The position numbers were made by a program, and so were the translations under genes. A model generated the notes under the pieces. The model had not been told where the DNA came from. It saw only the letters and a program-made list of their open reading frames with translations, and ran no database searches. A stretch of 64,000 nucleotides of DNA from Agromyces albus (GTDB lineage: Bacteria; Actinomycetota; Actinomycetes; Actinomycetales; Microbacteriaceae). Below are positions 1,351 through 17,003 of the stretch, one piece after another. The first letter of the stretch is position 1; every line of letters starts with the position of its first letter. The stretch is taken from contig NZ_JAUSWX010000001.1 in NCBI RefSeq assembly GCF_030815405.1, forward strand, positions 2,852,001-2,916,000, read 5' to 3'.

Positions 1351-1386
1351 TTGGCTCAGAAGTTAGCTAAGGCTAGGCTCACCTGG
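1351..1386 (+). promoter_or_regulatory. Promoter overlapped by an iron box (DmdR/IdeR type)
   Basis: TTGGCT (1351-1356), 17 nt, then TAGGCT (1374-1379) forms a good sigma-A-type promoter. The segment TAAGGCTAGGCTCACCTGG at 1368-1386 matches the actinobacterial iron box TTAGGTTAGGCTCACCTAA at 15 of 19 positions and covers the -10 element. This is where an iron-loaded DtxR/IdeR/DmdR repressor would block transcription. It drives the adenylation/carrier/acyltransferase gene downstream, with a leader of about 90 nt. Confidence 0.65.
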
Positions 1387-1426
1387 TTGCATCACCCGCC
1401 CCCAGAGTGATCGGAGACACTCCAGC

Positions 1427-1474
1427 ATGCCCATGCTCGTGCGCTTCGACCACCTCGCCAGCGGGAGTGAGTGA
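1427..1474 (+). CDS. Possible 15-codon leader peptide
   Basis: An ATG at 1427, preceded by GGAGAC at 1413-1418, opens a 15-residue frame (MPMLVRFDHLASGSE). Its TGA (1472-1474) shares a base with the ATG of the next gene. The arrangement suggests translational coupling in the transcript leader. No homology or function is known to me, and it may be chance. Confidence 0.3.
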   Translation: MPMLVRFDHLASGSE

Positions 1475-4146
1475 TGGCTGAGACGACTGCCGCCGTCCGT
1501 TTCCTGATGCCCACGCGGCCCGATGTGGGGCTCGACCTCCTCGCGGTCGGTGCCGACGACGACCTCGCGATCACCACGGCAGAGCGCACGATGACGCGAG
1601 CTGAGCTGCGAGACCGGGTCGACGACACCCGACGCTTGCTCGGAGACATCCGCCGGCTCGTCTTCGTCTCCTGCACCAACACCGTCGACTCGCTCGTGGC
1701 CTACCTCGCCGCCGTCGCCGGCGGGCACCCGGTGCTGCTCCTCGACGGCTCGGGCAGCGAGCAGGCTGAAGCGCATCGCCGCAACCTCGTCGACCGCTTC
1801 GACCCCGACGTGATCGTCGACGGCAGCGGCGAGGGCGACGTGATCGTCGACGGCAGCGGCGAGGGCGACGGCGGCTTGCGGTTCGAGGAGCGCCGGCCCG
1901 GCACGCGCCACGCACTGCACCCCGAGCTCGCGATGCTCACGAGCACGTCGGGTTCCACGGGGTCGCCGAAGCTCGTGCGGCTCTCGCGCCGCAATCTCAA
2001 GAGCAATGCCGCGAGCATCGCCGAGTACCTCGGACTCCGTTCCGACGACCGCGCGGCGACGACCCTCCCGATGCACTACTGCTACGGCCTGTCGGTGATC
2101 AACAGCCACCTGCTCGCCGGAGCGAGCGTGCACCTCACCGCGCGCTCGGTGGTCGACCCGCTGTTCTGGCGCGAGTTCGACCACGTCGGCGCGACCTCGT
2201 TCGCGGGCGTGCCGTACACCTTCGAGCTGCTCAGCGGCGCCGGGTTCGCAGATCACGTGCCGGCAACGCTCCGGCACGTCACGCAAGCGGGCGGGCGACT
2301 GCCAGCCGACGCCGTCAGGCACTACGCCGGACTCGGACGCGACCACGACTTCCGCTTCTTCGTGATGTACGGCCAGACCGAGGCGACCGCGCGGATGGCC
2401 TACCTGCCGCCTGAACTGGCCGAGGCTCGCGCGGGCACCATCGGTGTTCCGATCCCCGGCGGCAGCTTCCGCATCGACGGCGACGACGAGGGCGAACTCG
2501 TCTATTCGGGCCCGAACGTCATGATGGGCTACGCCGGGGACGCCGGCGACTTCGCGCTCGGCCAGGTGCTGACGGAACTGCGCACGGGGGACATCGCCCG
2601 CCAGCACGACGACGGCCTCTACGAGATCGTCGGGCGGTCGAGCCGCTTCGTGAAGACGTTCGGGCTGCGCGTCTCCCTCGACCGGGTCGAGGAGCTGCTG
2701 CTCGAAGCCGGCATCGATGCCCGTGCCGTCGCGTGCGACGAGCGGCTGGCGGTGTTCGTCCGCGCCGAGCGATTCGTCCCGGCCGCACGGGACGTCATCG
2801 TTGAGCGGCTCGGGCTGCCGGCGCACGCGTTCGCGGTGCACGCCGTGGATCGCTTCCCGCGCACCGCGTCGGGAAAGCCCGATGACGCGACCCTCGTCGC
2901 GCACGCGCGCCGCCTCGAGCAAGTGGAGCCGGATGACGCGACAGCGCCGGCATCGGAGCGGATCCGCGAGCTCTACGCCGAACTCCTCGGGCGGCCGGAT
3001 GCCACTGCGGATGACTCGTTCGTCTCGCTCGACGGCGACTCGCTGAGCTACGTCGAGGTCTCGGTGCGGCTCGGGCGGATGCTCGGGACGCTGCCGAGGG
3101 ACTGGCCCGAACGCGGCATCCGCGAGCTTGCCGCACTCGTGGCGCCCGAACCGAGAGCCACCACCGCCGAGTCGGCGGAGCCGGCCGGCACGAACACGAA
3201 GACTGCACGCCCCCGACGCCGACCACGCACCACCTCGATGGAGACCTCCGTGCTCCTGCGGGCCGCGGCGATCGTGCTCATCGTCGCGACGCACACCGAC
3301 TTCATCGACGTGAAGGGCGGCGCACACCTGCTGCTCGCGGTCGCGGGCTACAACCTCGTGAGGTTTCGGGTCACCGGGGCATCCGGCGCCGCCCGCGTGA
3401 CCGGGTTGCTGCGGGCAGCCGCCTGGATCGCGGTGCCCGCTGTGATCTGGATCGGCGGGGTCGCCATGACGACCGGCTTCTACGATCCGTCGACGGCGGC
3501 GCTCCTGAACGGCGTGCTCGGCCAGCAGTCGGTGTGGTCCGAGCAATGGCAGTTCTGGTTCCTCGAGGCGATCATCTGGACGCTCGTCGGCGTCGCGGCG
3601 CTGCTCGCGATCCCGTGGGTCGACCGGTTCGAGCGGCGGCATCCGTTCGGCCTCGCGCTCATCCTGCTCGCGGTGGCGTTCGCGGTGAGGGTGCTGGTCA
3701 TCGGCGGCATCGAGGCGGAGCGCGTGGAGCGGTACGCGGTGCTCAGCGTCGTGGCCTTCGTCGTGCTCGGCTGGCTCATTGCGCGCGCCGACACCCTCAC
3801 CCGCCGCCTCATCGCGAGCGCGGCCGTGCTCGTCGTCGCGCCCGGGTTCTTCGGCGAGCCGCTGCGCGAGGCCATCGTCGTCGCGGGCTGTCTGCTGCTG
3901 TGCTGGATGCCGGTGCTGCGAGTTCCGCGCGTGCTCGTGCCGACGGTCGTGGTGCTCGCCGCGTCGTCGATGTACGTCTACCTCACGCACTGGCAGGTGT
4001 ACCCGCCGATCGAGGAGGTCTCTCCCGCGCTCGCGACGCTCGCCTCGTTCGCGGTCGGCATCGTGGTGTGGTGGCTCGCCCGCGTCGCCGGGCAGGGTAT
4101 TGCGCGCATGACGCGGGCGAGTGCGGCGCCGTCGACGTCGAAGTGA
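1474..4146 (+). CDS. Adenylation-carrier-membrane acyltransferase fusion
   Basis: Three-part protein of 890 residues. Residues about 1-490 are an AMP-forming adenylation domain: P-loop TSTSGSTGSPK near 155-165, MYGQTEA, GELVYSGPNVMMGY, RTGDIA, and the catalytic lysine K468 in PRTASGKPDD. Residues about 500-570 are a carrier domain with phosphopantetheine serine S523 in LDGDSLSY. Residues about 590-880 hold some nine membrane helices resembling acyltransferase family 3, with a THTDF motif near the start. Inference: a carboxylic or amino acid is activated, loaded on the internal carrier, and transferred across or at the membrane. The start ATG 1474 has GGGAG at 1463-1467. The promoter carries an iron box, so iron starvation is the likely inducer. 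The substrate is unknown. Confidence 0.8.
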   Translation: MAETTAAVRFLMPTRPDVGLDLLAVGADDDLAITTAERTMTRAELRDRVDDTRRLLGDIRRLVFVSCTNTVDSLVAYLAAVAGGHPVLLLDGSGSEQAEAHRRNLVDRFDPDVIVDGSGEGDVIVDGSGEGDGGLRFEERRPGTRHALHPELAMLTSTSGSTGSPKLVRLSRRNLKSNAASIAEYLGLRSDDRAATTLPMHYCYGLSVINSHLLAGASVHLTARSVVDPLFWREFDHVGATSFAGVPYTFELLSGAGFADHVPATLRHVTQAGGRLPADAVRHYAGLGRDHDFRFFVMYGQTEATARMAYLPPELAEARAGTIGVPIPGGSFRIDGDDEGELVYSGPNVMMGYAGDAGDFALGQVLTELRTGDIARQHDDGLYEIVGRSSRFVKTFGLRVSLDRVEELLLEAGIDARAVACDERLAVFVRAERFVPAARDVIVERLGLPAHAFAVHAVDRFPRTASGKPDDATLVAHARRLEQVEPDDATAPASERIRELYAELLGRPDATADDSFVSLDGDSLSYVEVSVRLGRMLGTLPRDWPERGIRELAALVAPEPRATTAESAEPAGTNTKTARPRRRPRTTSMETSVLLRAAAIVLIVATHTDFIDVKGGAHLLLAVAGYNLVRFRVTGASGAARVTGLLRAAAWIAVPAVIWIGGVAMTTGFYDPSTAALLNGVLGQQSVWSEQWQFWFLEAIIWTLVGVAALLAIPWVDRFERRHPFGLALILLAVAFAVRVLVIGGIEAERVERYAVLSVVAFVVLGWLIARADTLTRRLIASAAVLVVAPGFFGEPLREAIVVAGCLLLCWMPVLRVPRVLVPTVVVLAASSMYVYLTHWQVYPPIEEVSPALATLASFAVGIVVWWLARVAGQGIARMTRASAAPSTSK
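1811..1870 (+). repeat. Perfect 30-bp tandem duplication, in frame
   Basis: Two identical adjacent 30-bp units (1811-1840 and 1841-1870) encode a doubled ten-residue segment, DVIVDGSGEG twice, in a loop before the adenylation P-loop. The identity suggests a recent slippage or duplication that keeps the frame. Confidence 0.95.
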
Positions 4147-5117: not shown

Positions 5118-5363
5118 TCACGCCGACGTTGTCGGCTGCGAACGCATCCACGCGTAGAGCTCGGCCTCGTCGTAGCGCACGCGAGCGCCAACCTTCAGGT
5201 ACGGCGGGCCGACCTTCCGTGCGCGCCAATTCGCGAGCGTCTGCATGGCAAAGCCGGTGCGCACCACGACCTCGGCTGGCGTGAGGTACACGGGGAGGCC
5301 CGGCGCTCGTCGAGGAGGAGCTCCCGGCGCCGCCGCAATGCTCTCCTCACGCGCCGGGGTCAC
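5118..5363 (-). CDS. Second small HTH protein, excisionase-like
   Basis: Protein of 81 residues. After a loose Pro/Ala/Arg-rich N-terminus comes YLTPAEVVVRTGFAMQTLANW with GPPYLKVGARVRYDEAELYAWM, a standard HTH_17/MerR-like module that recognises DNA. The GTG at 5363 is chosen because GGGAG precedes it by about 7 nt; the upstream frame lacks a plausible coding region. It lies just upstream, in the same direction, of the 4827-5060 HTH gene. Which of the two is the excisionase cannot be decided. Confidence 0.72.
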   Translation of the reverse strand: MTPAREESIAAAPGAPPRRAPGLPVYLTPAEVVVRTGFAMQTLANWRARKVGPPYLKVGARVRYDEAELYAWMRSQPTTSA

Positions 5364-5558
5364 GCGGCCGCTCCCGAGTGAGTCCGAGGCATGGGAGCGC
5401 AATCGGCGATGATCAGGAGAGGGGATGGGAGCCTGGCCATTCCCGGAGTCTAGAGCTCTGTGAGGGTTGGGGTCCATCTGAAGGAGACCCGGAATTGCAG
5501 GGCACGGCCCCTGCATAGGGGGGCGAACCGGTACCAGCTCGCGGATAGGCTCAGCGCC

Positions 5559-6161
5559 ATGAAGAGGCTGCTCCCAATCACGACCCTCGCAGCGAGCCTC
5601 CTCGTCGTCGTCTTCGCTCTCACCGGATGCGCGGCAGCTGGTGAGAGCGTCGAGAGCGCAGCACGTTCCGCCGCCGTCGCCGAAGATGAGACCCCAACAG
5701 CTACAGAAGAGGTCGTCGATCTCGCGTCCAAGACCAATCCCGGTGAGGTGTGCGACCCGCACAACCTCAACGACGTCATCTGCGCCGCGTTCTATCCAGA
5801 CCTGGCTGTGATCAACATGACCTCTGCGCCGCGCGGGATGGAGCCGCTCGCTTCGCTGCCCGAGGCGGATAGGATCGCACTCGCCCATCAGGCGTGCGAC
5901 GCCCTCACGGCCGGGGCGACGAAAGACACGCTCGTACTCGTCGACACCATCCGTGAGTCCGAGAACGACCCACGCGATAACAACCGCGTCCTGTTCAGCG
6001 CCGGGACGCTCGCCTACTGCAACGAACACCTCGAGGACACCGACGCCGGGTACCGCTTGGGCTGGATTATCAACGCGTACCGGCAGATGGGCGAAGCCGC
6101 CGCCAAGGAATCGTTCGCGGACGGCACGGTTATTCAGCCTCCGGAGCGGCCGGAGCAGTGA
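5559..6161 (+). CDS. Lipoprotein encoded by the element
   Basis: Protein of 200 residues with a signal peptide (MKRLLPITTLAASLLVVVFA) and lipobox LTGC, so it is expected to be lipid-anchored outside the membrane. The C-terminal half (ADRIALAHQACDALTAGA to LAYCNEHL) resembles DUF732-like secreted domains, with paired cysteines. TAGGCT at 5546-5551 lies 7 nt before the ATG, indicating a leaderless transcript that could be made in the lysogen. Lipoproteins in prophages often act in superinfection exclusion, but nothing here proves that role. Confidence 0.75.
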   Translation: MKRLLPITTLAASLLVVVFALTGCAAAGESVESAARSAAVAEDETPTATEEVVDLASKTNPGEVCDPHNLNDVICAAFYPDLAVINMTSAPRGMEPLASLPEADRIALAHQACDALTAGATKDTLVLVDTIRESENDPRDNNRVLFSAGTLAYCNEHLEDTDAGYRLGWIINAYRQMGEAAAKESFADGTVIQPPERPEQ

Positions 6162-6218
6162 CTCACGACTGAGGCAGCTCTGACCGGAGAGTCGGTGCGG
6201 CGGCGTATGGTGAGGCGC

Positions 6219-6386
6219 ATGAAGGTCTGTCCGAGGGACGGCGGCCGGCTCACTGAGATCAGGAGCACCCGTCAAGGCATGCGATCGGGGCGCCGCATAG
6301 CATCGGCGCCGGTCGTCACGGGGTATCTGTGCGAGCACGGGCACACGCTCAACATGGGAGAGCAGCCGGTCGACGTCGACGAGTAG
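6219..6386 (+). CDS. Small zinc-ribbon-like protein
   Basis: Protein of 55 residues (MKVCPRDGGRLTEIRSTRQ at the start) with CPRDGG near the N-terminus and a later CEHGH, which could make a Cys/His zinc site. TATGGT at 6206-6211 is 7 nt upstream of the ATG, so leaderless expression is likely and the start is well supported. It follows the lipoprotein gene. Family unknown. Confidence 0.6.
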   Translation: MKVCPRDGGRLTEIRSTRQGMRSGRRIASAPVVTGYLCEHGHTLNMGEQPVDVDE

Positions 6387-6535
6387 TAGCTCCGTGGGTG
6401 TGTGGGGCAGTCCGACGCGGCCCCCTACTTGGGAGGGCGAGGCGGGACCGAACTCGAGCGGCGGCGGGCGAGCCTCCCGCACGAGCCTTTGCGGTGGTCA
6501 GAGCACACGACCGCATCGCCCGCGCACATTGCGTC

Positions 6536-6685
6536 TTAGTCGACCACGAACCTCCGGTCAGTGTTTCGGATCATGGCGAGGTACGCGCGTGCACCTTCCT
6601 CAGTCTCGCCGTCACGGATATACGCGGCGACGATCTCATCGTCGGTCGCATGCTCCACGTCGTTGAGGGTCAAGGGGGTGATCAC
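6536..6685 (-). CDS. 49-residue acidic protein (easily missed)
   Basis: A GTG at 6685 opens a 49-codon frame (MITPLTLNDVEHATDDEIV at the start, RNTDRRFVVD at the end). TAGCCT at 6692-6697 lies exactly 6 nt upstream, the leaderless signature. The peptide is acidic and looks helical, with clean codon use. It occupies the otherwise empty stretch 6387-6751. Function unknown. Confidence 0.6.
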   Translation of the reverse strand: MITPLTLNDVEHATDDEIVAAYIRDGETEEGARAYLAMIRNTDRRFVVD

Positions 6686-6751
6686 GCGAGCAGGCTACGC
6701 CTCTGGCGCCGCGGCCGCACCCTCGGTAGAGAACTCCCCGGCCTCGGGAAG

Positions 6752-7312
6752 TTACGGCAGGTAGACGCTCGCGTGCTGCATCTCGGATGACGTGTCGTCG
6801 AGCCACGCGATGTCGAGTTCTTTGACGCGCAGCGCGAGACGACGCTCTGTACGCACGACGATCGCCGACCCCGGCTCGAGTGTCGGTCGATCAGCGACCA
6901 TGCGGACGAGCGCCGAGTGTTCTTGCGGCACCGTTGTTACACCAACCTCACGTGCGCCGATGGAGCCGATATTCCGTAGACGGAACGTGTCGGGTTCGCT
7001 TCGTTCCTCGACGGCCCATTTCACCTCGGGCTGCGGCACGAGCGCACGAAGCTCGGCCGGCGCATCGGTCGGGCGCACGTGGAGGACAGCCGAACGGGCA
7101 CTGATGATCTCGATCGCTTCCGCGATCCGCTCGGCCGCATCCGCGCTTCGCAGCAACGCTGCGGCCGCGTCCCCCCGCGCGTCTTGTGCAGCGGCGTTCG
7201 CCCGTCCAGCCGCTCTCGACGCACTCGCCGACCGGAAGAACCCCACGACACCGCCGACGAGCCCTGCTGCACCGAAGATCAGGGCGAGGATGTCGGCGGT
7301 CTCCCACGTCAT
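6752..7312 (-). CDS. Membrane-anchored protein of unknown function
   Basis: Protein of 186 residues with one N-terminal membrane segment (ADILALIFGAAGLVGGVVGF), a coiled-coil alanine-rich stretch to about residue 75, then a globular domain including FRLRNIGSIGAREVGVTTV that reads like a beta-rich fold. ATG 7312 is preferred because TACGCT at 7320-7325 lies 7 nt upstream. It belongs to the bidirectional cargo cluster of the element. It resembles no family I can name. Confidence 0.65.
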   Translation of the reverse strand: MTWETADILALIFGAAGLVGGVVGFFRSASASRAAGRANAAAQDARGDAAAALLRSADAAERIAEAIEIISARSAVLHVRPTDAPAELRALVPQPEVKWAVEERSEPDTFRLRNIGSIGAREVGVTTVPQEHSALVRMVADRPTLEPGSAIVVRTERRLALRVKELDIAWLDDTSSEMQHASVYLP

Positions 7313-7390
7313 GCCTTGGAGCGTACAGGCCAAGCGGGACTTTCACTGCAGACCGTACGATGCCGAACGTTTGACAGGGTACTCGCGCAC

Positions 7391-7606
7391 CTAGCCAAGT
7401 GCGAGTATTTGGTTCGCGCGGCGCCGCAGCCGGGCGTAGTCGAGCTTCTCGCCGGTATCCGAGTGGATGTCGAGCTCCACACCATCCGCTGACGTGAGGC
7501 CAGCTTCGCGCGCCGTCTTCGCGATCCCTTGAGCGGTCTCCTCATATACGGCGTCGATCGCTTCCCGCTCGAGAGCGTCCGCCAGGTCATCCCAATCATT
7601 CGCCAT
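7391..7606 (-). CDS. Small acidic hypothetical protein
   Basis: Protein of 71 residues, MANDWDDLADALEREAIDA at the start, mostly helical and charged, with a basic C-terminal helix (YARLRRRANQILAL). TACGTT at 7613-7618 lies 6 nt before the ATG, which supports the start and suggests an independent leaderless transcript. It is divergent from the gene at 7700. Function unknown. Confidence 0.62.
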   Translation of the reverse strand: MANDWDDLADALEREAIDAVYEETAQGIAKTAREAGLTSADGVELDIHSDTGEKLDYARLRRRANQILALG

Positions 7607-7699
7607 GCCGCGAACGTACCCCCAAGACGCCCAAACCCACACCCCCAGAACGAGCCTCGCCGCAACGCGCGTGTCGCACGTCAGCCGTATGGTGGCCCA

Positions 7700-7909
7700 A
7701 TGCACGAACTCGCAAGCATCGAGCCCGTCCTGAACCGGGCGGGGATTGTTCTTGCCGTCTGGAAGTGCACCTGCGGCCGCCGAGGCAAGGGCAGCCGCAC
7801 GGCCACCGAGTCCCAAGCCGGCTGGATCAAGCATGCCCGTGGGCGGGCGCTCAGAGATGCAGGCTACGCGCCGTCGCGACGATCGCCCCGCACCTCCCGG
7901 GACTGGTAG
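7700..7909 (+). CDS. Small basic hypothetical protein
   Basis: Protein of 69 residues containing VWKCTCGRRGKGSRTATESQ, a CTC pair in a basic region, then SQAGWIKHARGRALRDAGY. TATGGT at 7688-7693 is 6 nt upstream of the ATG, so the start is supported. The stop is 2 nt before the ATG of the next HTH gene, making a two-gene operon. It may bind nucleic acid or zinc, but this is only suggested by composition. Confidence 0.58.
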   Translation: MHELASIEPVLNRAGIVLAVWKCTCGRRGKGSRTATESQAGWIKHARGRALRDAGYAPSRRSPRTSRDW

Positions 7910-7911
7910 CC

Positions 7912-8265
7912 ATGCCGAAGCCGCTTCCCATCCCCAGCTCGACGCGCGAAGCAGTCGCTGAAGCCATTCACGCCGGCCGGGGCCGCAACGAGATCGCTCG
8001 TGCCTTCAACATCTCCCCCGGGTCCGTGTCGAAGATCGCGCGCGACTATGGCCTCTGGTTCGAGCGCTCCTCCCAGACTGCAACCGCCACCAAAGCCCGC
8101 CAGATCGATCTCTGGGCAGCACGAATCGAAAGAGCCGAGCAACTCTTGCACGAGTACCTCCAAGCCCCATACCGACAGGACGGCACACCCACACGACGCT
8201 CCAGACGAGCCAGCTACGCCCTCTACGACGTCGAGCGCCACCACGACGGCACCTATCGTTCGTGA
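7912..8265 (+). CDS. Phage helix-turn-helix protein
   Basis: Protein of 117 residues. The N-terminal half has a clear HTH: TREAVAEAIHAGRGRNEIAR then AFNISPGSVSKIARDYGLWF, the recognition helix lying in SPGSVSKIARDYG. The C-terminal half is basic and helical (RIERAEQLLHEYLQAPYR). Similar HTH segments occur in phage transcription factors and at the N-terminus of small terminase subunits, but there is no large terminase gene nearby, so a regulator is the safer call. It sits 2 nt after the preceding gene. Confidence 0.7.
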   Translation: MPKPLPIPSSTREAVAEAIHAGRGRNEIARAFNISPGSVSKIARDYGLWFERSSQTATATKARQIDLWAARIERAEQLLHEYLQAPYRQDGTPTRRSRRASYALYDVERHHDGTYRS

Positions 8266-8407
8266 CCCGGATCGGTCACACCTATGCGCGCGTGCGCGAG
8301 GCGCGTGCGCAGGTAGCCCAAGGCCGCGCAATTCCGGGATCTTGATGTCGAACACCCGTCGAACGTTCGAAGTTGGGCGGTGTCTCGGCACGGTGCTCAC
8401 CCTGATG

Positions 8408-8424
8408 CCCCGTTCGCGGGGTTC
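8408..8424 (+). terminator. UUCG-tetraloop hairpin
   Basis: CCCCG-TTCG-CGGGG followed by TTC closes the 7700-8265 operon. The rest of the 191-bp gap 8266-8456 shows only GC-rich alternating sequence and no further gene. Confidence 0.6.
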
Positions 8425-8456
8425 TGGTCGGGCTTCCGCCCCGACAGGATGGGCTC

Positions 8457-8744
8457 ATGACAGACCGTGTATTGACGATCCCGACCGACCCGCCCGCAAT
8501 GGTCATCGCTGGAAGCCCCGACGATTACGGCTCGCTCGACGTCGGCTCCATCCGGTTGGCTGCCGAGTTTGCGGGCAATGCCTTCCGCCGTGCGGAAGAG
8601 CTCACGGAGAACCCCGATGACATCGCTTCGCTGCGCGCGGCCGTGAACGAACTATCCGATGGCCTCAACACGGTGGTCGGGCAGCTCTACCAGATCGCGC
8701 ACGGGCTTGCGACGGGCCGACTCGCGGTAACCCAGGCTGACTAG
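8457..8744 (+). CDS. Hypothetical helical protein
   Basis: Protein of 95 residues, acidic and mostly helical (AAEFAGNAFRRAEELTENPD, VNELSDGLNTVVGQLYQIAHG). CAGGAT at 8445-8450 lies 6 nt before the ATG, a weaker form of the leaderless promoter seen elsewhere. No signal peptide or membrane segment. Function unknown; it stands just upstream of a small membrane protein gene in the same direction. Confidence 0.6.
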   Translation: MTDRVLTIPTDPPAMVIAGSPDDYGSLDVGSIRLAAEFAGNAFRRAEELTENPDDIASLRAAVNELSDGLNTVVGQLYQIAHGLATGRLAVTQAD

Positions 8745-8771
8745 GGCTTCACCAATCGATGGAGTGTGGGC

Positions 8772-9278
8772 ATGACGCCGGAGTTCCTGCAATCGATCGC
8801 CCTCGTGATTGTCGGTGCCGCGATCACGCTCAGCACGACGCTCATCGTTGAGCGACTTAGGGGACGTCAGGAGGACCGTCGAGAGACCGAACGGCGCGAG
8901 GTCGAGGAAGGAGCGAAGCTCCGAGAGCAGGGTTTGAGCCACACGCTCGCCGTCCACGACATCCTCAATCAACTGCAGCTCGCGTTGTCGGGCCGCGTGA
9001 CGCCGACACCGCAAGACGAGCTCATGCTCGCCTTGCGCGGCCGCTACCTTCTGGTGCCGGACACAGAAGTCCGATCCGCGCTCGCGGTCGGACTCACTCT
9101 CGCAGCCCGACAGGGGCAAGGAATGGTCGAGTGGAATCACGTTGGGCGCGCCATGACCGCGTGTTCCTTCATCGTTGCTGCATACCTCCGCGGCGGCCGC
9201 CCGCCCGCCCGCTACGTTTCACAGCTCGCGGATCTCCGGGCGCTGTACGAGACGTCTGGCGAATCTGAGGCAGAATAA
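8772..9278 (+). CDS. Small membrane-anchored protein
   Basis: Protein of 168 residues with a single N-terminal membrane segment (SIALVIVGAAITLSTTLIV), a charged linker (RLRGRQEDRRETERREVEE) and a soluble helical domain. The ATG at 8772 is chosen over the GTG at 8766 because GGAG at 8761-8764 is 7 nt before it. The layout resembles the other membrane-anchored protein of the element at 6752-7312, so the pair may act at the envelope. Family unknown. Confidence 0.62.
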   Translation: MTPEFLQSIALVIVGAAITLSTTLIVERLRGRQEDRRETERREVEEGAKLREQGLSHTLAVHDILNQLQLALSGRVTPTPQDELMLALRGRYLLVPDTEVRSALAVGLTLAARQGQGMVEWNHVGRAMTACSFIVAAYLRGGRPPARYVSQLADLRALYETSGESEAE

Positions 9279-9285
9279 CGACCTC

Positions 9286-9636
9286 CTACACGGCCGACCA
9301 GATGGCGTAGAACTCTCGCACGGCGGCACGCAACAGAGATCGATCGCGTGACTCGCGAAACCCGTATTTGTACTGCAGGTTCCGCTGCGCGAGCTTCCTA
9401 CTCCGGAGCCGGTATTTCAGTGCGGCGACGCGTTCAGCGGTGTACTCGGCGTACCGCAGCTCGCGGCCGATGAGGTCGCGCATCTGATGCTCCCAAGCGA
9501 CGTTCTCGGCCTCGTCCGTCATCAAGCACTCGGTCTGGAATGCCCACGTCGCCAGAAGTAGCCACAAGGCATCCTCGTCAGCGGCCGGCCAGCGGCCACG
9601 CTCGGCGTCATCGAGTAGCTGGGTCAGCGGGTCCAC
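9286..9636 (-). CDS. Hypothetical phage protein, end of the leftward operon
   Basis: Protein of 116 residues, helical and rich in Arg/Tyr/Trp in its C-terminal half (YAEYTAERVAALKYRLRSRK, NLQYKYGF). It starts with GTG at 9636, 13 bp inside the preceding gene (overlap 9624-9636), which points to translational coupling. It is the last gene of the leftward train that begins with the XRE gene near 17.0 kb. Function unknown. Confidence 0.6.
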   Translation of the reverse strand: MDPLTQLLDDAERGRWPAADEDALWLLLATWAFQTECLMTDEAENVAWEHQMRDLIGRELRYAEYTAERVAALKYRLRSRKLAQRNLQYKYGFRESRDRSLLRAAVREFYAIWSAV

Positions 9637-9926
9637 CGATGCCGCCGGTTCTCGAGCTCGGCGTCGACGTCACTGCGCACGTCTCGCTCGAGGATCTTCA
9701 CAACGGTGTTGTCGCGCTTCGCTTTCGCGAGCGCCTTCTTCGAGCGGCGGCCGAACTCCATCAGCAGCTCCAGCTCGGCCTGGCCTCGATCGAACGGAGT
9801 GAGCGACTCGTCCGCATCGAGCGTCGCCTTCTCGACCTTGTGCCAGTCGAACAGTTCGTCTGTAGCGCGCTCCTCTGCCTCGCGTTGTGCCTGCTTCGCT
9901 CGACGGTGAAGATTCCCGGTGGCCAT
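9624..9926 (-). CDS. Hypothetical charged phage protein
   Basis: Protein of 100 residues, strongly charged with long helices (NLHRRAKQAQREAEERATDE, FGRRSKKALAKAKRDNTVVK). ATG 9926 has AAGGAG about 9 nt upstream. A hairpin at 9953-9986 separates it from the preceding gene. It could be a small virion or assembly protein, but nothing identifies it. Confidence 0.62.
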   Translation of the reverse strand: MATGNLHRRAKQAQREAEERATDELFDWHKVEKATLDADESLTPFDRGQAELELLMEFGRRSKKALAKAKRDNTVVKILERDVRSDVDAELENRRHRWTR

Positions 9927-9952
9927 CGTGATTACTCCTTCTGGGGGTGTGG

Positions 9953-9986
9953 GGCGGGCTGGCACCCTGCACAGGGCCAGCCCGCC
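9953..9986 (-). terminator. GC-rich intercistronic hairpin
   Basis: GGCGGGCTGGC pairs with GCCAGCCCGCC across a 12-nt loop in the 75-bp gap between the genes ending at 10002 and starting at 9926. There is no T tract, so it may attenuate rather than stop transcription of the last two genes. Confidence 0.5.
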
Positions 9987-10001
9987 GCGACCTGTCGCGG
10001 G

Positions 10002-10739
10002 CTATGCAGCCTCTGCTGCGACGGGCTGCGCTTCGGACTCGGCGAGCTGCGCGCTGATCGCCGCGCCGAGGATGTCGGTGTGACCGGCATCGATCAGCTG
10101 ACCCGCGGCGTACAACCACGGTTCCGCGCCGGCCGCGCCCTGCTCCGCGGTCAGCGTTCCACGTAGCGTCTCGGCGAGCGCCGCGTCCGGGGTGATCTCC
10201 GCGAGACGGGCGTAGACGTTGCGACGGATGCCGGGTGCGACTTCCGACGCAGCGGCACCCAAGGCGTTGCCTACGGCCCCCTGGAGGCCGTGCGGGCGGG
10301 TCGATTGCGCTTCCGCCCACGACGGGGCGAACTCGGCGATCGCGAGCGCGGTGTCGGGGTCTGCCTTGCGGATCTGCTGCAGCAGGTCGCCGCCGGCTGC
10401 GAGGATGCGTTCGACCTGTCGCCACTTCTGCTCAGCCCGGATGAGCGCTGCCGGATCGTCGGCGAGCCGGGTGTGCTCAGCGGCGGTCGAGGCGAGGTAG
10501 TCGCGTGCTTGCACCGTTTCGCCCCTCAGCTTCGCGAGATCGGTGGCGGCCGCGGCGCGGAATGTCGACTCGAGCTCGACACGCTTCTCGGCGACGCCCT
10601 GCGGGCTGAGGTTCGGGTCGGTGAAGGTGCGGGCCTTGCCGAGCGCGTCGGATAGCTGCTTCGCGAGCGTCGAGGCGCGCTCCCTGGCCGTGCGCATCGT
10701 CTCGGCCGCAATGCGGACGCTGGTGATGTAGATCGTCAT
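10002..10739 (-). CDS. Coiled-coil phage protein downstream of tail genes
   Basis: Protein of 245 residues, nearly all alpha-helical with heptad-like stretches (RIAAETMRTARERASTLAKQ, LESTFRAAAATDLAKLRGET) and an alanine-rich C-terminus. ATG 10739 has AAGGAG spaced well before it. In phages, such proteins near tail genes may be minor structural or scaffold-like proteins, but I see no diagnostic motif. Confidence 0.6.
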   Translation of the reverse strand: MTIYITSVRIAAETMRTARERASTLAKQLSDALGKARTFTDPNLSPQGVAEKRVELESTFRAAAATDLAKLRGETVQARDYLASTAAEHTRLADDPAALIRAEQKWRQVERILAAGGDLLQQIRKADPDTALAIAEFAPSWAEAQSTRPHGLQGAVGNALGAAASEVAPGIRRNVYARLAEITPDAALAETLRGTLTAEQGAAGAEPWLYAAGQLIDAGHTDILGAAISAQLAESEAQPVAAEAA

Positions 10740-10750
10740 GAGAGTCTCCT

Positions 10751-11122
10751 TCAGTGCTGGCCGGTGAGGCGGCCGTTGTCATCGATGGTCGCGGTGCCGT
10801 TGATGATGTCGCGCAGATCGACGGCCGTGTGACCGTCGGCCGCAGTGACCATGAACCGCTGCTCGGGGTCCTCGCCGTCGCCGAGCGAGCCCAGGAACTG
10901 GACCGGGAACGCGTCGAGTCGGGCGACCTTGTCGAGGTGGTCCTGCGGGATCTCGTCGACGGTCTCGACGCTGTAGCCCTTGCGGCCAACCCACTCCGCG
11001 ATGTGGTCGCTAGTCGTGTAGCCGACGCCGAGCACGATGCGGACTCCTCGGCTGTGGTCGTTCATGTCGCCGATCGTGGCAATCGCTTCCGGGTCGGGTG
11101 CTGCGAGCCTGTACGTGGTCAT
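10751..11122 (-). CDS. Hypothetical phage protein
   Basis: Protein of 123 residues with mixed alpha/beta composition: MTTYRLAAPDPEAIATIGD, GVRIVLGVGYTTSDHIAEWV, then EQRFMVTAADGHTAVDLRDI. ATG 11122 is preceded by AAGGAG. It lies 11 bp upstream of the coiled-coil gene in one operon. Unassigned. Confidence 0.6.
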   Translation of the reverse strand: MTTYRLAAPDPEAIATIGDMNDHSRGVRIVLGVGYTTSDHIAEWVGRKGYSVETVDEIPQDHLDKVARLDAFPVQFLGSLGDGEDPEQRFMVTAADGHTAVDLRDIINGTATIDDNGRLTGQH

Positions 11123-11158
11123 GGTGTGTCTCCTTCTGGGTTGTCGATGGCGAGTTGC

Positions 11159-11431
11159 TCATCGAGGATGTGGGGATGGATCTTGGCGCGGGTGTGGCGG
11201 TTCGGCGTCGAGGTCGAGCGTGACTTCGCGGTTGAGCATCACCGAGAGCAGGACCTCGGAGTCGGAGATGACCGTGAGCTGGTGGCTGACCGGGACCCAG
11301 CCCTCGCCGTGCTCGCGAATGAACTCGGGGCTGTGGAACGCGACGAGCCGTTGGGTGGGCAACTGGCCGGGCATTGTCGGGACGATGCTGGAGACGGGCA
11401 GTCGGAAGAAGTAGACGCCGGTGTCGATCAT
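11159..11431 (-). CDS. Small phage protein following the tail-fibre gene
   Basis: Protein of 90 residues (MIDTGVYFFRLPVSSIVP at the start), rich in beta-type residues through residue 80, then a Pro/His-rich tail. ATG 11431 overlaps the TGA of the preceding gene (ATGA), with GGAGGG upstream, so it is translationally coupled to the tail-fibre-like gene. Position suggests a virion or assembly role; no family recognised. Confidence 0.6.
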   Translation of the reverse strand: MIDTGVYFFRLPVSSIVPTMPGQLPTQRLVAFHSPEFIREHGEGWVPVSHQLTVISDSEVLLSVMLNREVTLDLDAEPPHPRQDPSPHPR

Positions 11432-12433
11432 TCGGGGGTTCCCTCCGCCGTTGGTGGTTTCGTCGGCTCGACTTCGAAGACCGCGCGGGCCGCTTTCACG
11501 AGCCACGAGAACGCCGAACCCGCCGTTCCTGTCACCGTGAACGCGCCGTCTTGGATGTCAGTCCAGCCGGGCACGAACCCGCGACCTGTGACGAAGACGC
11601 TGCGCCCGTCTGGGAGGGCGAGCGACTCGAAGTAACCGGGGAGTTCGACTCGGGCGGCTCCGTCGTTCCCGATCGTCGCGTTGCCCCAGTACTCGACGCC
11701 GTGCACCGGGGATTCACTCGAGCCGTGCCGGAGCATCTTGTCGGCGTGCGTCGGATGCGGAATGAGGAACGACTTGGACGCTGCGGAGAAGTCGCCTTGC
11801 ACGCTCATGTCGTCGTTGGCGACGACGGGACCCTCGACGGTCGTCTGCGTGCCAGTGACGAGGATCGCGTGACCGAGGCTGTGCTGCATCCCGACGAGTC
11901 CGGTGCCGACATACATCGTCCGACCCCCGGCGACCATCCGAATGCCGCCGTTCGCGGTGTCTGCCTCGAGTGCTCCGCCCGTGCCGAACGATAGGGGCGC
12001 CGTTCTGGAGAGTCAGCGGCGACGAACCGCCCGTGATGAGAATCTTCCCCGCACCCTCAACGACCAAGTCATTCAGGAGCTTCGTCAGCCCTGTCACGTC
12101 GAGATTGCCACCGATCTCCGTGTTCCCAGTGAAGTTCGCGTTCGCGGCGACATCGAGCGAGCCGCCGATGCTCGAGTCGCCCGAGAACGATGCCGGCCCG
12201 GTCCAGATCAGTTCACCGGAGCCCGTCAGCAAGCCGATCACCGACGCGGTGCCGGTGACGATTAGCCACCCCTCGACCTTCGCGGAGCCCTGCACGAGCA
12301 GGCCCTCGTTCGAGGCGACGCGGAGCTGGCCGCGGGTGATCGCGGTGAAGCCGACTGGGGCGCCGTTCTCCAGCTTCCGGATGCGGCTGAGAACCTCTTT
12401 GAGCGCCGAGTCGTTCAGGTTGTCGTGCAGCAT
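11428..12433 (-). pseudogene. Tail-fibre-like gene split by a +1 frameshift
   Basis: The first frame (ATG 12433) reads MLHDNLNDSALKEVLSRIRK and then a repetitive beta-rich run with GGSLDVAANANFTGNTEIGG and GGNLDVTGLTKLLNDLV, typical of fibre shafts. Sense coding then switches to the +1 frame, which carries FGTGGALEADTANGGIRMV and continues to TGA 11428. The switch falls at the CCCC tract on the coding strand (plus 11994-11997); removing one C would restore a single protein of about 334 residues. Whether this is mutation, sequencing error or programmed shifting is open. The gene starts 2 nt after the tape measure stop, so it probably encodes a distal tail or baseplate protein. Confidence 0.7.
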
Positions 12434-12434
12434 G

Positions 12435-15400
12435 TCAGCCGCCCTTTCGGATCATCTTGTTCAGGCGGTCTTGCGCGAGATTCGCGTACGCGGACTCGTC
12501 GAGGCCCGGGGGGAAGTGGTTGTTCTGCACCACCGACGCCGGGGCGGCGGCCGTCGAACCCGCTGAAGCTGTGATTTGAGGCGGGCCGCTCGCGCTTCGG
12601 CCAGCGCCGGCGGGGACCAAGTCAAAGCCCAGTCGCGCCGCCGTATCGGCGAGCACAGGGACCGACTGGGAGCGCTTCGCGGGCGAGAGTGGAATGTATG
12701 CCTCACCGCCGGTCTCAGGCTCCGCCCACACCCGCCACGCGCCCGCCCGAGCGATCTGGGCCACGTGGTGCTCGCGCATGCCACCGCTGGCGTAGTGCTC
12801 GACGATGCCACCGTCAGCCATGGTGAGACCGCCCTGGCCGCCCGCGCCCGTTGCGACGCGGATCGTGTAGTCGCCGGTCGCGGCGCGGATCTGCGCCTGC
12901 AGCGTCATGATCTTGCCGTAAGCGGTGCTCGTGTCCACGTCGATCGTGGGGACGTATCCCTCGACCTTCAGCTTGTAGTCGCGCATGATCTCTTCGACGG
13001 TTGCGGTGCCGTCGGCGAGTTTCGTCGCGATTTCGGTCGCGGCGTCCTTCCCGAGCTGAGCGCCGGCGGCGGCGATGATCGGCCCGGCCGTGTCGAGAGT
13101 GCCGGCGAACGCATCCGTGGCCTCTTGCGACCGTTGCCCGTAGATGCCCTCTAGTTGCGCGAGCTCGTCGTCGGAGGCGTTCACGAGATCGGCGACAAGC
13201 GGCGCCCCCTCGGGGCCCAGCTTCGCCAGCTCCTCGAGCACTCCGGAAGAGACGCGCCCCGACAGGAGCACCATGTTCGTCTCCCACGCGTTCTGGGCAT
13301 CCACCTGCGTCTGCAGTTCAGCGAGGTACTCGCCGACGCTGACGGAGATCCCGTCGTAGTAGGACTCCCACGAGTCCGAAGACGAGCTGGTTGCCTCGGC
13401 GGTCTTCTCCGCCCATTCCTGGTTCTTCGCCACGACGGCGTCGATGCCGCTCTTGAAATCTACGAACGCTCCATCAGCGACAGCGAACTCGCCAAGGAGG
13501 CTCTCCTGGGCTTGCTCGGCTGCCTGCATCGATTCGGTGAGGACATCCGTCGCACCAGCAGCCGACTCCGTCGCGTCGGCTGAGTCGTCGACGGCAGCCT
13601 TCTGATCCTGAAAGCCCTCCTTCGCTCGCGGCAACGCCGCTGCGAGATCGTCGATCGCGCGACCTGCATCACCTGCGCGCACGCCGACGCCGGTGAAGAA
13701 GTTCACCAGGTTGTTGTTGCCGGCGATCTTCGCGGAGACTCGCTCCAGCTCTTCACCGCCGTTGATCACGGCGTCGGTGAGCTCTTTCTGCGAGATTCCG
13801 GCTTCCTTCGCTGCTTCGAACGCACCCTTCTCGGCCAGCTTCTGGGCCACCAACTCGCGCGTCAGCTTCGTGACCGCGCCAGTGGTCTGGTCGAGTGAGG
13901 CTTGGAATTCGGAGGCCGCAGCCGAGGCGTCGGCCTGACGAGCGGCCCACACGGCGAAGGCGGCTCCCACGAGGGAGAGGGCAATACCGACGCTGCCGGC
14001 AATGATGGCGGTCTTGCCCATCGTGAGGTTGAGGCTCCTGAGGTTCTGCTTGAGTTCGCCGATCTTGCCGATCGCGCCGAGCGTGCCACCGGACAGCAGG
14101 AGGAACGCTCCGATGGCTACTCCGGCTGTGAGGACGGTGCTCTGTACGGCCGGGTCGAGCTCGCCATAACCGTCGATCAGCCCGGTGACGAGCTGCACCT
14201 GGTCACGGAGGACCTCGTTCGCGCCCGAGCCCGTCTTGATCAGGGCCGTGTCGAACGCGCCGCCGAGCTTCTCGATGTCGCCCGCGAGGTTGTCCTGCCG
14301 GCGTGCAGCCTGATCCGCGGCGAAGCCGGATTCATCGACGGCGTCGGTCCACTTGGTTACAGCCTGCGCGCCACCCTCGTAGAGGACGCGCGCGGCGGTG
14401 ATCTGCTCGTTGCCGAAGATCCGGCCGAGCGCGGCAGACCGCTCTTCCTCGGTGAGGTGAGCGAAGCCGGTGCGGAGCGCCTCAGCGACCTGCGCGAGGG
14501 ACTTCATCTTGCCCTGGCCGTCGAAGATCTCGACGTTGTAATCCTTCAGCGTCTTCGCCGCGATCGATGAAGGCGAGACGAGCGACTGGATCACACCGCG
14601 CAGGCCCGTGCCGGCGCGCTCACCGAGCTGCCCGTTCTCAGCGAACAGCGCGAGGGTGCCAGTGACTTCCTCGACCGAGAGGCCCATGCCGGCCGCAACG
14701 GGGCCGACGTACTGCAGCGCCTGTGCGAGGTCGTCGACGGAGCCCTGCGCCTTGCCAGCACCCGCCGCGAGGAGATCCGCGACATGCGAGGCATCCGACG
14801 CGGGCAGCTTGAACTGCTTCAGCGTCGTCGCCATGATCGTCGCCGACCGAGCTACCTCGAGCTGACCGGCCGCCGCGAGCGCGAGGGAGGCGTTCAGGCT
14901 GCTGCCGACGATGTTCGCGACGCTCAGGCCGGCTTTCGCGAGCTCTTCCTCAGCCGCAGCCGCCTGCGTCGCGGAGTACGCGGTGTCGGCGCCAGCATCG
15001 AGGGCCGCCTCGCCGAGTTGTTCCTGCTCGGCCGCGGTGGCCATGGTCGCGGCGGCCGTGTTCGACATCGCCTGATCGAACGTGGCGAACTTCGCTACAG
15101 ACAGGCCCACGAGGGCGGCGACGGCGACACCGGCTGCAAGGAGCGCGACGGAGAGTTGCCGGGCGGAGTGCGCCTGCTTCTCCGACGCGGCCGCTTGCGC
15201 CTCCTGCTTGGCCTTCGCCTTGCGAGCTTCCTCGCCGGCACGCTCGGTCGCCCGGGCCTGCTCGTCGAGGGGCTGCTTCGCCGCGCGGGACTTCTTGCCT
15301 GTCGCGTCCGTGGCGGTGCCGAGCTGTTCGACGGGCTTCGCCGCTGCAGCCGCCGACCGGCCGGTCTTCTCGATCGCTTGGTCAGCTTGGCGGAGGTCTT

Positions 15401-15461
15401 GCTGGAAGACCTGCGCTCCCGCGGCCTTGATGGTGAAGATCAGCGCGCCTGCATCAAACAT
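12435..15461 (-). CDS. Tail tape measure protein
   Basis: Largest gene of the element, 1008 residues. The N-terminus (FDAGALIFTIKAAGAQVFQQ, LRQADQAIEKTGRSAAAAAK) and the central TP901-type core (SVAKFATFDQAMSNTAAATM, VEEVTGTLALFAENGQLGER, then GLRGVIQSLVSP) are typical of tape measure proteins that set tail length in long-tailed phages. Hydrophobic segments occur near 105-120 and 445-505. The C-terminal part has glycine-rich linkers and ADGGIVEHYASGGMREHHV, also usual for the family. It implies a siphovirus-type tail, yet tail tube, terminator and head genes are missing around it. The gene is intact. Confidence 0.9.
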   Translation of the reverse strand: MFDAGALIFTIKAAGAQVFQQDLRQADQAIEKTGRSAAAAAKPVEQLGTATDATGKKSRAAKQPLDEQARATERAGEEARKAKAKQEAQAAASEKQAHSARQLSVALLAAGVAVAALVGLSVAKFATFDQAMSNTAAATMATAAEQEQLGEAALDAGADTAYSATQAAAAEEELAKAGLSVANIVGSSLNASLALAAAGQLEVARSATIMATTLKQFKLPASDASHVADLLAAGAGKAQGSVDDLAQALQYVGPVAAGMGLSVEEVTGTLALFAENGQLGERAGTGLRGVIQSLVSPSSIAAKTLKDYNVEIFDGQGKMKSLAQVAEALRTGFAHLTEEERSAALGRIFGNEQITAARVLYEGGAQAVTKWTDAVDESGFAADQAARRQDNLAGDIEKLGGAFDTALIKTGSGANEVLRDQVQLVTGLIDGYGELDPAVQSTVLTAGVAIGAFLLLSGGTLGAIGKIGELKQNLRSLNLTMGKTAIIAGSVGIALSLVGAAFAVWAARQADASAAASEFQASLDQTTGAVTKLTRELVAQKLAEKGAFEAAKEAGISQKELTDAVINGGEELERVSAKIAGNNNLVNFFTGVGVRAGDAGRAIDDLAAALPRAKEGFQDQKAAVDDSADATESAAGATDVLTESMQAAEQAQESLLGEFAVADGAFVDFKSGIDAVVAKNQEWAEKTAEATSSSSDSWESYYDGISVSVGEYLAELQTQVDAQNAWETNMVLLSGRVSSGVLEELAKLGPEGAPLVADLVNASDDELAQLEGIYGQRSQEATDAFAGTLDTAGPIIAAAGAQLGKDAATEIATKLADGTATVEEIMRDYKLKVEGYVPTIDVDTSTAYGKIMTLQAQIRAATGDYTIRVATGAGGQGGLTMADGGIVEHYASGGMREHHVAQIARAGAWRVWAEPETGGEAYIPLSPAKRSQSVPVLADTAARLGFDLVPAGAGRSASGPPQITASAGSTAAAPASVVQNNHFPPGLDESAYANLAQDRLNKMIRKGG

Positions 15462-15464
15462 GCG

Positions 15465-15944
15465 TCACCGCCCGTCTATGGCCCGAGGACCATCGTCAGG
15501 GCTGCCCTGCTCAGCCGGATTGGAGACGGGCCCATCGCCCGCCTCAATGCCCTCGCCCTGGCCGCGACGCGGCTCGGCGGGGAAGTCACGATCCTGCTCG
15601 ACACGCTGCGAGCTCGGAGGTAGCAGCGTGCGCACCGCAAGAGCCACACCACTCAGCCGGCTTCGGAATGACGACATCTGCCACGTCTCGACGTCGAACA
15701 CGATGAACTCGCCCAGCATCCTCGAGACTTGGCGCATGAGCACGACCGTGTACTGACGCGACGTCTTCGCCGAGGTCTCCAGCACCGCGCGGACCGCCTC
15801 ACGGTCATCCGGCGACAGGGCGATCCGGCGGAACAGCTCCTCAACGTCCGCGTGGAACGCTGCCTGGTCGCTGACGATGACGAGATCGTCTAGGTCGGCC
15901 GCGAACAGCGCGACGAGCGCATCCTCGTCCGGTTGCTCGCTCAT
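15465..15944 (-). CDS. Phage protein between replication and tape measure genes
   Basis: Protein of 159 residues: an acidic helical N-terminal domain (EDALVALFAADLDDLVIVSD, LFRRIALSPDDREAVRAVLE) and a disordered C-terminus rich in Pro, Glu and Gly. ATG 15944 overlaps the preceding TGA (ATGA). The slot just upstream of a tape measure gene is normally held by tail-assembly chaperones; this could be one, but no slippery frameshift site or second frame was seen. Confidence 0.55.
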   Translation of the reverse strand: MSEQPDEDALVALFAADLDDLVIVSDQAAFHADVEELFRRIALSPDDREAVRAVLETSAKTSRQYTVVLMRQVSRMLGEFIVFDVETWQMSSFRSRLSGVALAVRTLLPPSSQRVEQDRDFPAEPRRGQGEGIEAGDGPVSNPAEQGSPDDGPRAIDGR

Positions 15945-16777
15945 GCGGCGCCTCCCATCCGGTCCTCGGCGCAGCGCGGACAGCCGCTCGGCGGATAGCC
16001 CGGGTGTGCGCTGCACTCAGCGAGCTCCCGCGGCGGGATCGGTGTGACCGTTGCGCGCTGCGGCTTGCTGGCTGAGGCCTCGTTGGCGAGCTGCTCTTCG
16101 TCCGTGAAGCGCTCGTCGTTCAGCCAGCCGGCAGCCAGCTTGATCCTGGTCTTGTCGCCCCCGGCGTTCATGAGGGCGTACGAGCGCAGCCCGGACATGA
16201 TCGTCTCAAGGCTGTGCTTCTTCCGCGCTCTCGCGAATGCTTCCGCGGCCGGCTTCTTCGCCTGGCGGCGGGGGTACAGGGACCAAAACTCCTCGAACTC
16301 CGATGAATACCCCTGCTTCTTGCCCGCTCGTGCATCGTGATGCACATCTACTACTTCGTCAGAAGTAGTGGTCGGGTCGGGTCGGGTCGGGGGCAGGGTT
16401 GGCAATTGGTCACCATCATGGTTGGTGACCTCGTCGGTACCGCGGTTACGCGAACGCCAGTTCGCGACCTTCTCGGTATTCTTCCGGCGCCGCTCGAGCG
16501 TCGGCTCGCGCAACGGCTGATCGGGACCCCAGGTTACGAACTGGAACCCGGCATCGACGATTGCCCAGTAACCAGCGTCAACGAGGCGCTGCGCGTCCCC
16601 AGGCGTGCCAGCGAGCTCCTCGATCATGTGGGCCGGAATATGCCCGTCGGTGAGCTCTCGCGCGCTCCACGAGCCCGCCAGCGCCCACAGGCCGATGGCT
16701 GCCGGCCGATGCGCGCGCGGGATGCGCGTGGTCTCCACCTTTGTGGAGAGCCCATCATCGACCTTGAACCATGGCAT
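15941..16777 (-). CDS. Phage replication initiator-like protein
   Basis: Protein of 278 residues. It opens with MPWFKVDDGL, the start of the N-terminal domain common in phage replication proteins, and later has EFEEFWSLYPRRQAKKPAAE, the DnaT/O-like segment seen in replisome organisers. A CSAHPGYPPSGCPRC motif near the end may bind zinc. ATG 16777 is 4 nt after the XRE stop. It probably recruits the host helicase to the element origin. The next gene overlaps its stop. Confidence 0.72.
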   Translation of the reverse strand: MPWFKVDDGLSTKVETTRIPRAHRPAAIGLWALAGSWSARELTDGHIPAHMIEELAGTPGDAQRLVDAGYWAIVDAGFQFVTWGPDQPLREPTLERRRKNTEKVANWRSRNRGTDEVTNHDGDQLPTLPPTRPDPTTTSDEVVDVHHDARAGKKQGYSSEFEEFWSLYPRRQAKKPAAEAFARARKKHSLETIMSGLRSYALMNAGGDKTRIKLAAGWLNDERFTDEEQLANEASASKPQRATVTPIPPRELAECSAHPGYPPSGCPRCAEDRMGGAA

Positions 16778-16781
16778 CGGA

Positions 16782-17003
16782 CTACGCCACCGCCCGAAGC
16801 TCGCTGAGAAGCTGCGCGTAGCGGAGGCGCAACTCGCCGCGCGGTCGACGATCGCCCGTCTCCCAGCGCGAGATCGTGTTGCGCGCAACGCCGAGCTCGT
16901 TCGCCAGCCTGATCTGCGACACTCCTGCGCTCTCTCGAATCAGTCGAGCGACCTCCGGCTTGGGGAGGTCTCGCGCGATGCGCACTTCCTCGATCAGTGT
17001 CAT
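16782..17003 (-). CDS. XRE-family HTH regulator
   Basis: Protein of 73 residues that is essentially one lambda-repressor-like HTH: VARLIRESAGVSQIRLANEL then GVARNTISRWETGDRRPRGE. ATG 17003 is fixed by GGAGGT 4 nt upstream. It is the first gene of the long leftward train (replication, tape measure, fibre) and diverges from the leaderless gene at 17153. It may activate or repress this operon. Confidence 0.8.
   Translation of the reverse strand: MTLIEEVRIARDLPKPEVARLIRESAGVSQIRLANELGVARNTISRWETGDRRPRGELRLRYAQLLSELRAVA

Follow-up and report, generated by a model that had tools for sequence, protein, structure and literature searches.

What does a single protein do that combines an adenylation domain, a carrier domain and a membrane acyltransferase, and why should it stand behind an iron-responsive promoter? 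The question is raised by a gene of Agromyces albus (Microbacteriaceae) at 1474..4146 on the plus strand of a 64,000-nucleotide stretch of DNA, the window of this work (NCBI RefSeq assembly GCF_030815405.1, contig NZ_JAUSWX010000001.1, positions 2,852,001 to 2,916,000). Iron control of the gene and its coupling to the ferric importer FbpABC are well supported, because of an iron box, a canonical IdeR regulator, a box shared by relatives, and the linkage and co-occurrence with fbpABC; the substrate, the acceptor and the chelation of iron are inferred. An iron-controlled outward acyl transfer that serves iron uptake through FbpABC has, as a whole, about an even chance of being the correct description.

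Read from its ATG, the gene encodes 890 amino acids (an alternative GTG start lies at 1471), and three Pfam domains were found above cut-off: AMP-binding at residues 29-353 (PF00501, 130 bits), PP-binding at 495-538 (PF00550, 28 bits) and Acyl_transf_3 at 594-868 (40 bits). On the plus strand of the window, the adenylation domain with its C-terminal part occupies 1558..2895 (residues ~29-474), the carrier domain 2956..3087 (residues 495-538) and the acyltransferase-3 (AT3) membrane domain 3244..4125 (residues 591-884). The AMP-binding domain possesses a P-loop-like motif and a catalytic-type lysine, K468, found in 86 of 86 aligned proteins, the window protein among them; the phosphopantetheine serine of the carrier, Ser523 (codon 3040-3042), is the serine of DGDSLS and is likewise invariant in the 86 rows. 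The preliminary description of this locus had placed an adenylation domain, a carrier with S523 and an acyltransferase-3 domain in one gene, and this was borne out, supporting its predicted fusion of an acid-activating enzyme to a membrane acyltransferase. The gene also holds an exact 30-bp tandem duplication (1806-1870; 2.2 copies, 100%), which adds an acidic loop (a VIVDGSGEGD repeat) that is absent from P0002, a relative of 89-91% identity, and that forms a low-confidence part of the structure model.

Upstream of the gene, the best register of an iron (IdeR/DtxR) box, TAAGGCTAGGCTCACCTGG, lies at 1368..1386 on the plus strand and matches TWAGGTTAGSCTAACCTWA at 15 of 19 positions. A second register, five bases upstream (1363-1381), overlaps it at 14/19, and apart from these two no 19-mer of the window exceeds 12/19 against the consensus. 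With up to three mismatches allowed, TWAGGTTAGGCTMACCTWA matched the window at this box only and none of 100 shuffles held any match, while TWAGGTTAGSCTMACCTWA, at the same tolerance, matched four places in the whole 4.27-Mb genome, the window's box included. The other three all belong to iron-uptake genes: one lies beside an ABC (ATP-binding cassette) ATPase gene that is followed by Peripla_BP_2, FecCD and siderophore-interacting protein genes, forming a siderophore importer; one at the fbpABC operon, in which fbpA encodes the ferric-binding protein; and one at an FTR1 iron permease gene. A canonical IdeR is also encoded in the genome (L001, 994-2016, minus strand; 260 bits to IdeR 1fx7), and all four boxes, including that of the window gene, would fit a single iron regulon.

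As had been claimed, the box overlaps a putative -10 hexamer. The hexamers and spacing of the promoter-like pair TTGGCT (1351-1356)-N17-TAGGCT (1374-1379), on the plus strand at 1351..1379, are also as described, but the pair is weak, and a promoter scan at its threshold called no promoter there. This weakness counts against iron control, as does the reversed control pattern, which matched once per strand genome-wide and indicates that chance boxes of such quality do occur. Both points would favor a chance match in front of a gene unrelated to iron. Because a lone match this good may be accidental, it is the relatives of the gene that carry the argument for the box.

These relatives form a large family sharing the three domains (of 7996 candidates scored, 6824 proteins match at E<=0.001), and AMP-binding together with Acyl_transf_3 occurs in the precomputed domains of the 120 relatives among the matches listed. 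The distribution is patchy, with the gene present, own genome included, in 20 of 398 Microbacteriaceae genomes (E<=1e-60) and in 40 of 396 genomes of its own order (E<=1e-100). For comparison of loci, the best 80 of 588 confirmed stretches in named genomes were picked by protein similarity alone and enlarged by 20 stretches of the genome set, the window's own among them, giving 100 loci, of which 99 are distinct (L033 equals L119). Hosts of the 80 stretches include Microbacteriaceae, Arthrobacter and its kin, Nocardioides, Streptomyces, Micromonospora, Actinomadura and others. The closest named relative, P0002, carries the label Streptomyces sp. ISL-90, which looks wrong; most of the other close relatives with names belong to Agromyces and Microbacterium. 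The entries P0206 and P0207 were considered as tandem paralogues on one contig and rejected, being one protein with two starts.

Scoring covered 400 bp ahead of the aligned start and a further 30 bp. A box of at least 14/19 preceded the gene in 76 of the 99 loci with sufficient sequence, or 75 of 98 when only distinct loci are counted, and controls consisting of five scrambled patterns and the reversed one reached a score of 14 in 6 of 594 trials. Sites scoring at least 15, of which 69 are distinct, display the expected palindromic pattern, with majority bases TTAGGTAAGGCTTACCTAA. Among the 19 same-strand loci in which fbpABC comes first, 17 carry the box ahead of fbpA and 2 ahead of the gene itself. 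When a box at either place is accepted, before the gene or a linked fbpA, 93 of 98 distinct loci possess one, the controls having covered gene promoters only. The boxless loci are L055, L058, L064, L107 and L128, and in each of these except L058 one flank is shorter than 4 kb; a box precedes the gene in 35 of the 39 loci that lack a complete fbpABC. The preliminary description would have given up iron control had orthologues lacked the box; most of them carry it. A chance box is contradicted by this recurrence, by the repeated presence of fbpABC beside the gene and by the co-occurrence of FbpA, and is very improbable. Judged from sequence, the gene is very probably under IdeR iron control and would be induced by iron shortage, in line with the prediction of the preliminary description.

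What, then, is the gene's partner in iron metabolism? Clustering of the neighboring genes returned one dominant partner, FbpABC, which comprises an iron-binding lipoprotein, a double permease and an ATPase. Searches by tblastn with FbpA, FbpB and FbpC placed the complete set next to the gene in 60 of 99 distinct loci. This number is a lower bound, because one flank is shorter than 4 kb in 19 of the 100 loci, and 11 of these show no complete fbpABC. The linkage spans Microbacteriaceae to Streptomyces and takes four forms (25 divergent, 19 on the same strand with fbpABC first, 12 convergent and 4 with the gene first). The aligned part of the gene and that of the nearest fbp match are a median of ~180 bp apart, and at most 1040 bp. 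The neighbor clusters c4 and c5, at the positions of fbpB and fbpC, look like antisense frames, and the tblastn counts were used instead. Neighbors in loci without fbpABC form small clusters, each common to few loci.

In A. albus itself, the boxed fbpABC operon is unlinked to the gene and lies elsewhere in the genome, and its FbpA scored 252 bits to a solved ferric-binding protein. An FbpA profile (E<=1e-40) matched 19 of 20 gene-positive versus 5 of 33 gene-negative Microbacteriaceae genomes, 12 of 13 versus 5 of 33 without the seven genomes that supplied its sequences, and 3 of 3 versus 0 of 8 within the same genus. The Fisher tests on these counts ignore phylogeny, the set of 33 gene-negative genomes is non-random, and at most 40 candidates per genome were scored. 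An earlier single-sequence FbpA search matched only 4 of 20 gene-positive genomes and missed known adjacent copies; it was replaced by the profile and not used. Across 22 aligned FbpA sequences, Cys23 is invariant and lipobox-like by eye, and so is, in 22 of 22, the YY pair at positions 232-233, which matches the known ferric-binding tyrosines. The own-genome FbpA (L160, G000:C1:2547500-2553000) has YAGRNE and SQDAG in place of the YNAQHE and TENSPAM found in the consensus of the 22 sequences.

As far as genomes can tell, the link between the gene and fbpABC is at once physical, regulatory and phylogenetic, and it is highly likely that the gene is functionally coupled to the FbpABC importer. 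The self-standing one-protein system envisaged in the preliminary description did not survive this comparison: the gene looks instead like the biosynthetic partner of FbpABC, adjacent to it in most loci and encoded apart from it here. One form that the coupling could conceivably take is acylation of a component of the uptake path, either a protein such as the FbpA lipoprotein or a small molecule such as an imported foreign siderophore, with no synthesis of a chelator. The dominance of fbpABC among recurring neighbors, the invariant Cys23 and the boxed siderophore-importer genes would all agree with such a role, whereas the pocket of the enzyme is near-invariant in 86 proteins while the 21 other aligned FbpA are only 29-46% identical to that of A. 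albus; we consider it improbable.

The main rival is envelope remodeling under iron starvation, in which the acid would be placed onto a cell-wall polymer, glycan or lipid for reasons of stress or charge, the product would bind no iron, and the linkage to fbpABC would reflect shared iron control only. A review of AT3 proteins concerns, in the part available, the modification of bacterial cell surfaces (PMC9558356). A precedent for such remodeling also exists: AimS, an AT3 protein of Acinetobacter, is induced by Fe/Zn starvation, and its contribution to low-iron fitness is independent of the metal content of the cell, according to the accessible portion of the report (PMC13345540). On the other hand, FbpA co-occurs with the gene even where the two are unlinked, and one specific importer is repeatedly adjacent in four different arrangements, both of which argue for a function in the same uptake step and leave envelope remodeling rather unlikely.

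If the gene serves iron uptake, which acid does it activate? The adenylation domain is complete, and its pocket (C203, Y204, G205, A272 and R307) is near-unchanged over 86 proteins that share 42-91% identity with the window protein (itself included), which suggests that all of them use the same acid. Nothing in the neighborhood stood out as dedicated to its biosynthesis, so this acid is likely a common metabolite. The position that binds the amino group (GrsA 235, VinN 230) is taken by Cys203 in the VinN alignment and by Gly205 in the LgrA alignment; as neither is an Asp, an alpha-amino acid appears unlikely as substrate. The best PDB match of the core adenylation segment is VinN (46 bits), in which Asp230 and Ser299/Arg331 are proposed, in the part of the source available, to recognize the amino and carboxyl groups of methylaspartate (PMC7756342). 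In the family studied here, the Arg331 position is kept (R307 in 86 of 86), Asp230 is replaced by Cys203 in 83 of 86, and Ser299 is replaced by Ala272. The pocket suggests with moderate strength a small acid that bears a further carboxylate and lacks an amino group, possibly a dicarboxylate.

That substrate choice must be set against several observations. Loop lengths differ from those of VinN, which tempers the comparison, and matches nearly tied in Z were obtained to feruloyl-, benzoate-, MenE- and fatty-acyl-type ligases, as would be expected if the acid were an aryl, hydroxy or fatty acid that yields a lipid-like or aromatic modification. The structure matches of the adenylation domain are tied and non-discriminating (MatB, oxalyl-CoA synthetase, MenE, HitB and others, the DltA structure 3e7w among them), in a whole-model fold search that covered this domain only, the AT3 part having been folded separately. 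The 25 NCBIfam matches listed all fall far under their cut-offs and include a 2-oxoglutaryl-ACP (acyl carrier protein) ligase at 78 of 370 bits. Opposed to a non-dicarboxylate are the invariant arginine at the VinN Arg331 position and the fold matches to MatB and oxalyl-CoA synthetase, which are equally close, though unspecific. A carboxylic acid of the diacid type falls just short of an even prospect, and an aryl, hydroxy or fatty acid is a somewhat weaker possibility.

The membrane domain bears on where the acid would go. Its model shows about ten helices, close to the nine or so first described, and superposes on transmembrane acyltransferases (the TmAT fold). The R-X10-H motif of helix 1 (R596, H607) is invariant in 86 rows. 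The RXXR motif of helix 3, located by sequence spacing rather than by superposition, is not conserved: Arg647 is present in 52 of 86 rows, and residue 651 is Arg in 43, Gln in 26 and Trp in the window protein. The first arginine of RXXR is conserved in most, not all, of the AT3 superfamily, as stated in the available part of PMC12423673. Searched by Foldseek alone, the AT3 part gave no match below 0.001, and a viral library search likewise gave nothing below 0.001. Outward transfer of an acyl group from the carrier is probable.

In the mechanism that we propose, low iron would take IdeR off the box, allowing expression of both the gene and fbpABC. The adenylation domain would activate one small acid in the cytoplasm, probably a dicarboxylic or hydroxycarboxylic acid supplied by central metabolism, and load it onto the phosphopantetheine of Ser523 in the protein's own carrier domain. 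The fused ten-helix acyltransferase would then draw on the carrier thioester instead of acyl-CoA, receiving it on the cytoplasmic side, and hand the acid to an acceptor at the outer face. In the simplest case the resulting carboxylate, surface-bound or released, might hold ferric iron near the FbpA lipoprotein for delivery to the ABC importer. The product could be a carboxylate iron ligand or a surface modification, and the case for an iron ligand is evenly balanced. A classical siderophore pathway is unlikely, since neither of the two standard markers searched for, an IucA/IucC synthetase and a nonribosomal peptide synthetase (NRPS) condensation domain, was matched in the genome at E<=0.001; of 14 control genomes, 2 and 4 gave matches.

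Should the product turn out to be an iron ligand, the pathway would be a very compact route to a chelator and, as far as our literature search showed, the first role for an adenylation-carrier-AT3 (A-T-AT3) protein. To our knowledge, no partner that delivers ferric iron to actinobacterial FbpABC importers has been described. More tentatively, the gene may represent a widespread, undescribed actinobacterial module in which a single membrane protein makes an extracytoplasmic carboxylate ligand from which ferric iron passes to FbpABC; the ligand would be a siderophore made by one enzyme or a chelator anchored to the surface. It would do at a Gram-positive surface what host iron proteins or foreign siderophores do for the FbpABC of Gram-negative bacteria.

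Two further features of the locus deserve mention. A 15-codon leader open reading frame, MPMLVRFDHLASGSE, was read directly at 1427..1474 on the plus strand, its TGA overlapping the ATG of the gene; with an approximate choice of starts, no such leader was seen in relatives among the first 40 of 99 loci, and 24 of 99 loci have frames that end at the gene's start codon, some of which seem to be the ends of fbpC. Beside the gene, at 5118-16888, lie mobile-element-like frames, all on the minus strand: an excisionase-like helix-turn-helix protein (5118-6482), a tail tape-measure protein (12435-15461) and a replication-initiation-like protein (15941-16888). In an empty-site test on eight same-genus genomes with a dinB match, the downstream ACT-domain gene was unmatched within 1.5 kb of dinB, and no insertion site was therefore demonstrable.

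How does the proposed system compare with those already known? In the literature searched, which lay outside subscription sources, no description of an A-T-AT3 protein in iron uptake was found. The FbpABC/SfuABC ferric importers are the partner, and no A-T-AT3 partner is named for them in the portions of the literature examined: a genome paper on Arthrobacter Rue61a reports FbpABC and has no "acyltransferase" in its main text. The main text of a paper on the DmdR1 regulon of S. coelicolor contains neither "AMP-binding" nor "adenylation". The membrane domain shares its ten-helix fold and R-X10-H motif with AT3/TmAT surface acyltransferases such as OafB and OatA, but described AT3 proteins use acyl-CoA, according to the available part of PMC12423673, whereas in this family the AT3 domain is joined to an A-T pair and RXXR varies. 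The AT3 fusions named in the literature examined (PMC9558356 among it) involve SGNH or alanine-racemase domains in bacteria and unnamed others in eukaryotes. AimS resembles the window protein as an AT3 acyltransferase induced by metal starvation (in our case by prediction), but it is an AT3 domain without A-T and acts on energy and pilin regulation (PMC13345540, accessible portion). VinN, one of the stand-alone enzymes that load acids onto carriers, has in common with the adenylation domain the arginine proposed to recognize a carboxyl group; in contrast, Asp230 and Ser299 are replaced here, and VinN feeds the freestanding vicenistatin carrier rather than a membrane transferase (PMC7756342, available part).

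Further close parallels are D-alanylation by DltABCD and glycylation by AlmEFG, in which a small acid is similarly adenylated, loaded onto a carrier and transferred outward at the membrane. Those systems consist of separate proteins, use amino acids and have no known link to FbpABC. Their membrane enzymes also differ, the Dlt transferase being an MBOAT protein and AlmG being LPLAT-like. By analogy, the A. albus protein may work much like surface modification of the Dlt or Alm type, with another membrane enzyme, a substrate that is probably not an amino acid, and a partner in iron uptake.

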